A stretch of 47,768 nt of DNA from an uncultured Pelagibacteraceae bacterium (GTDB taxonomy: Bacteria > Pseudomonadota > Alphaproteobacteria > Pelagibacterales > Pelagibacteraceae): the NCBI GenBank assembly GCA_902583785.1, contig CACHXE010000004.1, forward strand, positions 1 to 47,768. Reading direction: 5' to 3'. The translations under genes and the position numbers were made by a program. Shown here piece after piece: positions 19,164 to 21,060 of the stretch (positions are counted from its first letter, which is position 1; each line of letters starts with the position of its first letter). The notes under the pieces were generated by a model. It did not search any database. It was not told the DNA's origin and worked only from the letters and a program-made list of their open reading frames with translations.

Positions 19164-20138
19164 ATGAAACTAAATATTGAAAGTGAAAAATTTGATATCC
19201 CTTCTTTAGAAAAGGTAGCAGAGTCATTAAATATTGGCCTAAAGGAAAATTACAAAGATGTAAATGTACAAGTGGTTGATTGTCCAAACCTTAAACTTTG
19301 GGGTTGTCCTGCTGAAGGTATCTCTGGAAATGAGAAAATAATAGACGTAGGCGGAGAACCTTATATGCATGACCCAGAATTTTTAGGTACAGAATTTGAT
19401 TATGAGGAAATCTCAAAAAAAATTGGTTCAGAAAAATCATACGCTCTAGGAGCCGGTTCAAGCGCAATGTCATGCATGGATGGGCATTGTGGGGAACTTA
19501 CCATTAATGAAAATTTGATTACTTCCGATTCTAAATCTATTGTTGCTAGAGTTGATAAAAACAAAAAATGTATAGTTCAAAAATATTCTGCCAGAAAACA
19601 TGGAGGTCTCTCAAATATTTATTTTTCTGATGGAAAAAAAGGCAAAGTGATTAAGATAAAAATTAATATTAGAATTGGCAAACAGGGTTCTTTACCCCAA
19701 TCAATGAGATCTGCTTTAAGCAAATATTTAAAAATTTCAGAAAATAAACATGTGTCTTTGGCTGGGGTATTTAGAATTCTAAAAGGAAAAATAAAAAGCC
19801 ATGTTCAACCCGATTATAAAGACATTAAAGTTGATTACTACGATCCAAAATTGATGAAATGTACTAAAGATTTTTTACAATTTTATGAACCCGTTGGTTC
19901 AGAGCTTCAGTGTTATTCTGTTTTATGGACAGGAGATCCATCGGGAGGAAAACTAAATTTGAGAGAGTCAGGTGAGCATACTCATTTTCATTCCTATAAT
20001 AATGATAAGGATGCCGGCCATTATCACTTTGATGTAACTCCAAATGAAATTAAGTATGAGGGTTATTTTAATATTTCTAGAGAAGTGTATAGGGTCAACA
20101 ATATTTATAAAGAATTAGCTAATAAGTCTATTGATTAG
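19164..20138 (+). CDS. C11orf54/PTD012-like (DUF1907) metalloprotein
   Basis: A 324-residue homologue of human C11orf54. Shared features, from memory of the human protein, are the N-terminal IPSLEKVAESLNIGLKENY, VVDCPNL, DVGGEPY, LGAGSS, GKIKSHVQP, and the metal site EHTHFHS (His272, His274) plus GHYHFDVTPNEIKYEGYF (His286). The human protein was described structurally as a zinc-containing ester hydrolase; I also recall, less surely, a later report of sugar-acid decarboxylase activity. I chose the ATG at 19164 because human homology starts there, not the in-frame ATG at 19113 that would overlap the hydratase start. Its stop abuts the tRNA-fMet-derived repeat. Confidence 0.82.
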   Translation: MKLNIESEKFDIPSLEKVAESLNIGLKENYKDVNVQVVDCPNLKLWGCPAEGISGNEKIIDVGGEPYMHDPEFLGTEFDYEEISKKIGSEKSYALGAGSSAMSCMDGHCGELTINENLITSDSKSIVARVDKNKKCIVQKYSARKHGGLSNIYFSDGKKGKVIKIKINIRIGKQGSLPQSMRSALSKYLKISENKHVSLAGVFRILKGKIKSHVQPDYKDIKVDYYDPKLMKCTKDFLQFYEPVGSELQCYSVLWTGDPSGGKLNLRESGEHTHFHSYNNDKDAGHYHFDVTPNEIKYEGYFNISREVYRVNNIYKELANKSID

Positions 20139-20191
20139 TTGGTTGCGGGGGAAGGATTTGAACCTTCGACCTTCAGGTTATGAGCCTGACG
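20138..20191 (-). repeat. Partial copy of tRNA-fMet 3' part (attachment-site repeat, distal)
   Basis: 54 bases identical to 20982-21035. They cover the CCA end, T arm, variable region and anticodon arm (CAT) of the initiator tRNA. Beyond base 20191 the match decays, though TACC and CTGC pieces of the D-arm side are still recognisable to about 20207. Same orientation as the intact tRNA, at the far side of the HNH cassette. This is the classic footprint of site-specific integration into a tRNA 3' end. Confidence 0.88.
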
Positions 20192-20266
20192 CACGTACCT
20201 TTCTGCCCATAAAATTATCACAACACATCAAAAAAGCTAGATAAAATTTTCAGATTTACTTAACGT

Positions 20267-20285
20267 TGTGTCAGGGATGTGTCAG
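20267..20285 (+). repeat. Paired TGTGTCAG repeat, upstream of the HNH gene
   Basis: TGTGTCAG at 20267-20274 and again at 20278-20285, separated by three bases (11-base period). A further TGTGTCA at 20315-20321 overlaps the HNH start codon. The same spaced pair occurs after the gene. Spacing near one helical turn suggests a dimeric protein-binding site, such as integrase arm sites. Confidence 0.7.
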
Positions 20286-20320
20286 TAGACATCGCAGAAA
20301 AAAACTGGGAAAATTGTGTC

Positions 20321-20917
20321 ATGAAAAAGTATTATACTCTTGAAGAACGGAGAAAAGCAAATAGGGAAGCCCAAAGAAAATTTGCTAGAACACCTAAAGG
20401 GAAAAAACATATCTACGAAAAATTAAAAAAATGGACGAAAAAAAAGAGAGAGACAGATCCAGAATATTTTAAAAAATTCCAAAAAAATAGAAAAGGATAT
20501 TTCAAAGAATATCACGCTAAATTACGTAGAGAAAATATAGAAAAAGTTAGAGAAAGTTCCAGAAAAGGTATAAAAAAATTCTATAAAAAAACAAAGGCAG
20601 TACCAAAATATATTATCCTAAGAGCTTTAAGAAATAGATTGGGTCAAGCTTTAAAAGCAATTAAAAAAGAGAAGAGTATTTCAACAACTAATTTACTAGG
20701 GTGTTCGATTAAAGAGTTTAAAAGATATATTGAATTAAAATTTAAAAACGGGATGAACTGGGAGAATTATGGAAAATGGCACTTAGACCATATTAAACCA
20801 GTAGCTAAGTTTGATTTAAATAATTTAGAAGAACAAAAGAAATGTTTTCACTACACAAATCTTCAACCTTTATGGGCTATTGAAAATATTAAGAAAGGTG
20901 CAAAATATTCATACTAA
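20321..20917 (+). CDS. HNH endonuclease
   Basis: A 198-residue very basic protein. The C-terminal third holds the HNH motif: WHLDHIKPVAKF (Asp-His pair), YTNLQPLWAIEN (Asn) and NIKKGAK. The N-terminal two-thirds is Lys/Arg-rich (RRKANREAQRKFARTPKGKK and similar) and probably binds DNA. This form is typical of phage-borne or homing HNH nucleases. I prefer ATG 20321; an in-frame GTG at 20279 would add 14 residues but starts inside the TGTGTCAG repeat. It is the only gene in the tRNA-fMet insertion. Confidence 0.8.
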   Translation: MKKYYTLEERRKANREAQRKFARTPKGKKHIYEKLKKWTKKKRETDPEYFKKFQKNRKGYFKEYHAKLRRENIEKVRESSRKGIKKFYKKTKAVPKYIILRALRNRLGQALKAIKKEKSISTTNLLGCSIKEFKRYIELKFKNGMNWENYGKWHLDHIKPVAKFDLNNLEEQKKCFHYTNLQPLWAIENIKKGAKYSY

Positions 20918-20918
20918 A

Positions 20919-20937
20919 TGTGTCAGGCGTGTGTCAG
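20919..20937 (+). repeat. Paired TGTGTCAG repeat, downstream of the HNH gene
   Basis: TGTGTCAG at 20919-20926 and 20930-20937, three bases apart, starting two bases after the HNH stop. Matches the spaced pair at 20267-20285 (only the three-base spacer differs, GCG versus GGA). Confidence 0.7.
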
Positions 20938-20981
20938 GAAAACTTTCTTTACGTATCTTAAAATAAAAAAGTGTTGGTGTT

Positions 20982-21035
20982 GTTGGTTGCGGGGGAAGGA
21001 TTTGAACCTTCGACCTTCAGGTTATGAGCCTGACG
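20982..21035 (-). repeat. tRNA-fMet 3' part, proximal copy of attachment-site repeat
   Basis: The partner of 20138-20191 inside the intact tRNA-fMet; 54 of 54 bases identical. Integration that preserves a working tRNA leaves the intact gene on one side and the partial copy on the other, as seen here. Confidence 0.85.
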
Positions 21036-21060
21036 AGCTACCAGACTGCTCCACCCCGCG
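20984..21060 (-). tRNA. tRNA-fMet (initiator, CAT anticodon)
   Basis: A 77-base tRNA with encoded CCA. The acceptor stem begins CGCGGGG and ends CCCCGCA, giving the C1xA72 mismatch that marks bacterial initiators. The loop CTCATAA holds anticodon CAT. The anticodon stem reads TCAGG/CCTGA, so the first of the usual three G:C pairs is A:U. The tRNA lies 7 bases after the csp stop on the same strand and may be cotranscribed. Its 3' 51 bases are duplicated at 20140-20190. Confidence 0.95.

Follow-up and report, generated by a model that had tools for sequence, protein, structure and literature searches.

An integrase-free insertion in the initiator tRNA gene of a Pelagibacteraceae bacterium: a member of a family of attachment-site cassettes probably moved by the integrases of other elements

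How does a segment of DNA that encodes no recombinase come to lie in a tRNA gene with the footprint of site-specific integration? SAR11 bacteria are the most abundant bacteria of the ocean, and little is understood of how their streamlined genomes acquire and exchange accessory genes. The question is posed by a 47,768-nucleotide stretch of DNA from an uncultured Pelagibacteraceae bacterium (GenBank assembly GCA_902583785.1, contig CACHXE010000004.1, positions 1 to 47,768 of the forward strand), here called the window, in which a short insertion carrying a single HNH-type nuclease gene occupies the initiator tRNA gene (tRNA-fMet). We conclude that this insertion is probably a non-autonomous cassette consisting of a phage-type attachment site (attP) and its cargo, that it belongs to a family found in the Pelagibacteraceae, and that it was probably integrated in trans by the integrases of other elements, most plausibly phage satellites.

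The footprint consists of a 54-bp core, present on the reverse strand at 20138-20191 and again at 20982-21035; the two copies are identical at 54/54 positions, have the same orientation, and lie 844 bp apart. The proximal copy forms the 3' part of the intact tRNA-fMet gene (20984-21060, reverse strand), which was called by ARAGORN and is delimited as well by the repeat and by empty sites in relatives. The distal copy starts within a stop codon, on the final base of the DUF1907 gene at 19113-20138. A first-pass annotation made from the letters alone had described this repeat, its position directly after the neighboring stop codon, and an att footprint of tRNA integration with no recombinase, and on all three points our analysis agrees. 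If the segment was integrated, the distal copy would be the host's original tRNA 3' part and the proximal copy the one brought by the element. ARAGORN also reports a tRNA-Met at 20140-20211 (reverse strand), a hybrid pseudo-tRNA made of the core and the left end of the element, so that the distal junction would be misannotated as a second tRNA.

Only one open reading frame lies between the core copies, as the same annotation had held. It spans 20279-20917 on the forward strand and encodes 212 amino acids from a GTG or 198 from the ATG at 20321; we place the cargo gene at 20321-20917 by reading frame, PHROGs, motif alignment, and predicted model. The product matches the PHROG endonuclease VII family (E 5.6e-11) and shares the conserved HxDH...N...N residues with phage homologues; across 14 aligned sequences, W-H-x-D-H and the first N are invariant and the second N is nearly so. 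No Pfam, NCBIfam, or significant PDB match was obtained for the protein, nor any significant match in a fold search with its predicted model. Judged by its HNH catalytic motif, the protein is a predicted HNH/endonuclease VII-like nuclease.

What frames this gene, and was overlooked in the first-pass annotation, is a pair of flanking repeats, TGTGTCAGG(N)2TGTGTCAG, at 20267-20285 and 20919-20937. They belong to two conserved ends. The left end, of about 131 bp (20192-20323, forward strand), was delimited by alignment and by a match at 20193-20323 (130.6 bits) to profile R1, built from 12 left ends that include the window's own, and it holds three arm-like TGTGTCA sites on the forward strand, L1 (20267-20273), L2 (20278-20284), and L3 (20315-20321), at 75, 86, and 123 bp from the end of the core; the last base of L3 is the A of the cargo ATG. 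The right end, of about 64 bp (20918-20981, forward strand), was delimited by alignments, is 95.8% identical to that of genome G336, and holds two further forward-strand sites recognized by the repeat, R1 (20919-20925) and R2 (20930-20936). The motif TGTGTCAG occurs five times in the window against 0.5 expected, a count reached in 0 of 100 shuffles. These repeats are putative arm sites of an integrase. Just after the second left repeat lies TAGACAT (20286-20292), which is outside the repeats and largely conserved across the repeat classes described below; it may be part of a cargo promoter that integrase binding would cover.

Comparison of the locus in relatives, which the first-pass annotation had proposed, revealed empty sites, other insertions, and arrays. 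In G118 and G104, the closest sampled relatives, about 9 bp separate the end of DUF1907 from tRNA-fMet, and the flanks of the window, once joined, are collinear with these empty sites. Either this lineage gained the insertion, then, or others lost it, and the structure is not an invariable duplication; with the tRNA 3' part duplicated at both junctions and an empty site in relatives, it has the marks of an element integrated at a tRNA gene. An old immobile duplication, which the same annotation had considered, would have left all relatives alike and their tRNA copies equally diverged. Instead, G011, G336, G068, G088, and G109 each have a locus whose core copies are not the same in the T stem, most of the differences being paired, as they would be if the element had brought its own core. 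The two core copies of the window are identical, so the window itself bears no such sign of an element-borne core.

The ends and cargo of these elements are more alike than the chromosomes that hold them. The left and right ends of the window insertion are 95.4% and 95.8% identical to those in G336, where the host flank is 74% identical over only 189 alignable bp, and they are 95.4% and 95.8% identical to those in G003, where host DNA is 82.4% identical over 1.3 kb. Left-end identity exceeded host DNA identity in 100 of 120 pairs overall. The set of cargo genes for an EEP nuclease and lipoproteins in G151 (genus g1) shares 90-92% of its nucleotides with the set in G280 and K22, whereas host DNA is 76-77% identical. 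Cassettes have thus moved horizontally between genera.

The family to which the insertion belongs recurs at one place in the chromosome and carries many kinds of cargo. The strict repeat pattern was found in 11 of 397 Pelagibacteraceae genomes, mostly as pairs 0.35-3.1 kb apart, and its reversed control in 0 of the 397. Profile matches to the left end extend to 23 of the 397 genomes, a count that includes the members that built the profile, and to 5 of 14 genera: 8 of 31 genomes in the window's genus, up to 9 of 23 in g4 (of which two, in G129 and G139, are weak matches that lack a nearby core), and none in the well-sampled g5. Most of the named carriers, all Pelagibacteraceae, are single-cell genomes. 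Mapping placed about 25 elements, of approximately 0.5-4.3 kb except for one 5.6-kb satellite, at tRNA-fMet, alone or in arrays; G074, G028, G068, G126, and G088 have arrays of at least two elements, joined at core copies. At locus L009 (G011), a degenerate internal left end (2897-3002, 40 bits) precedes the last cargo gene, which suggests that two cassettes have fused there.

Cargo genes encode HNH proteins, trypsin-like proteases, an Mrr-type restriction enzyme with TerB, an N6 methylase with a specificity subunit, an EEP nuclease with lipoproteins, SNase, a MORN protein, and membrane and secreted proteins; PADLOC matches among them include type IIG restriction-modification and methyl-directed restriction enzymes. 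No integrase was found with PHROGs among 40 cargo proteins of the family. In the integrase-less elements, all main reading frames but one run from the distal end toward the tRNA, the exception being a radical-SAM/B12-binding gene that has been inserted within a cassette left end (locus L251 of G068, 1305-3263).

If the cassettes lack an integrase, which integrase could serve them? Two integrase-encoding elements share their attachment type. The longer insertion with an integrase that the first-pass annotation had suggested seeking at tRNA-fMet is present in G074, where the element adjoining the intact tRNA encodes a terminase small subunit and an AAA protein besides a tyrosine integrase; integrase-less cassettes follow it in tandem. 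The third element of this array is known by its right end only (L197, from 9754-9868 onward), and no left end was found in the 14 kb retrieved. The other, L389 (IMGVR_UViG_3300025168_016823), is a circular viral contig of 9,737 bp whose terminal repeat is 127 bp long; it encodes an integrase 76% identical to that of G074, a primase-AAA protein, and T5orf172, NUMOD3, and MORN proteins, and it carries a complete attP with the tRNA-fMet core. By eye, an L389 lipoprotein resembles the cargo of cassettes G280 and K22.

The cassettes and both integrase-encoding elements have in common the tRNA-fMet core and a geometry of three repeats on the left and two on the right: left repeats are spaced 11-12 and then 36-37 bp apart in the cassettes, the G074 satellite, and L389, and right arms lie at an identical distance from the core in most cassettes and in both of these elements. 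The left end of the G074 satellite matches the profile at 27.6 bits only. Repeats fall into classes, for example, TGTGTCA, TGTGTTCA, GGCGTCA, and TACGGCA, and the two ends of an element tend to match; the right repeats of cassette G126 and L389 agree over GGCGTCATACGAGCGTCAA. In permutations that take no account of relatedness, covariation of the arms across the two ends was reached in 0 of 20000 shuffles with a hand register (4 of 362880 for representatives) and likewise in 0 of 20000 register-free shuffles (1316 of 362880 for representatives). The G074 and L389 integrases are 53% identical in the N-terminal region and 84% in the catalytic part. The N-terminal region is the likely arm-binding part, and its faster divergence is expected if it reads the changed repeats.

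Further integrase-encoding elements were sought. None turned up at 40 tRNA-fMet sites examined with a small home-made integrase profile, and the next-best integrases lie at other tRNAs or at no detected tRNA. An alignment-based integrase search of viral contigs returned L389 alone. The first repeat pattern, TGTGTCAGNNNTGTGTCA, occurs in at least 120 stretches of viral contigs, and none among the matches listed has matching element ends. Neither phage structural genes nor conjugation genes were seen in any family member.

These observations fit the following model. Each cassette would be a complete attachment site, with the tRNA-fMet core and three plus two arm-type sites, joined to swappable cargo and lacking an integrase. 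A tyrosine integrase from a second element that shares the attachment type, most plausibly a phage satellite, would bind the arms and insert the cassette at tRNA-fMet, where the cassette's own 3' part would restore the tRNA; presumably it would also excise it. Mobilization in trans and excision are both inferred, and movement in cis within arrays is also possible. The junction of an excised circle would read right end, core, left end (...AAGTGTTGGTGTTG-core-CACGTACCTTTCTG...). The cassettes probably descend from satellites after loss of int: several keep TCACCTC just outside the right arms, at the position where the G074 satellite has the int ribosome-binding site (GGAGGTG on the reverse strand), and the motif may be a fossil of the deleted gene. 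The nuclease of the window is best read as merely the cargo of its cassette, not its means of spread.

The first-pass annotation had offered three origins: a non-autonomous satellite, a collapsed prophage, and HNH-aided spread into the tRNA gene. A non-autonomous element remains the best reading, and an element derived from a phage satellite is likelier than a collapsed prophage, for none of the family members showed phage structural genes and the integrase-encoding relatives are satellite-like. Homing, in which the nuclease would cut tRNA-fMet and copy its own gene in, draws what appeal it has from the HNH-type gene being the sole gene inside the window element, but members without an HNH gene lie at the same site behind the same ends, HNH relatives elsewhere in the family are not beside a tRNA-fMet core, and viral contigs hold many relatives. 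We rejected homing on the unrelated cargo behind the same ends and consider it very improbable. An even smaller chance is left to an artefact of assembly or of single-cell amplification, or to an old duplication that has stayed static; that most carriers are single-cell genomes would suit an artefact, but the same structure, with differing cargo, is present in about 20 independent genomes, and close relatives have empty sites; on these grounds of empty sites, varied cargo, and recurrence both possibilities were set aside. Homologous recombination at a chromosomal locus that varies might also swap cargo and ends, with no site-specific recombinase acting today. This is improbable: host DNA beside the cassette is dissimilar between carriers of the same cassette, distal host genes differ, every insertion occupies one and the same tRNA position, and the arms covary.

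The explanation that comes closest to ours holds that many satellites at tRNA-fMet independently lost their integrase and left relics like cis-mobilizable elements (CIMEs), immobile or moved only in cis with an intact neighbor. We think it unlikely. Most left ends are conserved to the same point, the third arm and the start of the cargo; all five arm sites are kept in most members and covary; one integrase-less cargo set is shared by two genera at an identity (90-92%) well above that of the host (76-77%); and cassettes far outnumber integrase-encoding elements, being present in 23 of 397 genomes against 1 of 297 for an integrase-encoding fMet element (overlapping samples).

Several observations nevertheless weigh against integration in trans by other elements' integrases. 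Those that favor relics are the tandem accretion in the five array-bearing genomes, the TCACCTC beside right arms, as if int had been deleted there, and published descriptions of decayed elements that keep attL and attR (PMC5704250). In favor of homologous exchange, similar EEP cargo with different right ends (K22 and G280 versus G151) suggests recombination inside elements. Arms are damaged or the right end is of a different type in G280, G028b, G112, and G088. No integrase was detected in the window element or in its source genome, which is 69.6% complete. Integrase-encoding fMet elements are rare, with 1 in 297 genomes, 0 in the 169 of one genus, and one viral contig, and several arm classes therefore have no known helper. 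Left-end and core-junction patterns had no match in viral contigs, no excised cassette circle was found, and the arm permutations leave relatedness uncorrected. Integration in trans nonetheless remains, in our judgment, the probable explanation.

Cassettes without an integrase at one tRNA, in about a quarter of the sampled genomes of the window's genus, offer a concrete and testable route of gene exchange that integrase-based detection tools would miss, and their matched arm-site classes supply natural variation with which to study the reading of arm sites by tyrosine integrases. A broader proposal, for and against which we find the balance even, is that the cassettes form a third tier of parasitism as satellites of phage satellites, with attP DNA as their only key and several arm classes each matched to a different satellite integrase, making the SAR11 initiator tRNA a modular gene-exchange slot for restriction and nuclease genes, among others.

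We found no account of such cassettes in the literature searched, mostly open-access, and they resemble several known systems in part. Among phage satellites (PICMI [PMC10803314], VEIME, and PICI), the likeness is to G074 and L389, which share a tyrosine integrase with an AAA or primase-AAA protein, G074 having also a terminase small subunit and L389 being circular. Known satellites need their own integrase for excision (PMC10803314); the cassettes encode none, and that of the window, with one HNH gene, is neither a satellite nor an autonomous integrative element or prophage. Tycheposons are described as tRNA-bordered islands of 4-200 kb with a tyrosine recombinase (PMC10872708). By that description they are likewise tRNA-associated cargo islands of streamlined marine bacteria, one of the tRNAs being that for Met, and they are set apart from the cassettes, which are about 0.5-4.3 kb long (0.84 kb in the window) and have no recombinase. 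Miniature inverted-repeat transposable elements (MITEs) and the integrase-less attC arrays named CALIN are "hitchers," non-autonomous DNA whose recombinase is encoded elsewhere (PMC11389934). By analogy, the cassettes would be hitchers too, if they move in trans; unlike MITEs and CALIN cassettes, each targets one chromosomal site, and their ends resemble the arms and core of an attP for a tRNA-specific tyrosine integrase rather than transposon ends or attC sites. CIMEs, the decay products of integrative conjugative or mobilizable elements (PMC5704250), are structurally close: the cassettes retain att sites, lack integrase and transfer genes, lie in a tRNA gene, and occur in tandem with intact elements. 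Unlike CIMEs, they have ends that are conserved, cargo that is interchangeable and mainly of one polarity, and arms that covary, and they give the impression of a family that is maintained, not of scattered relics.
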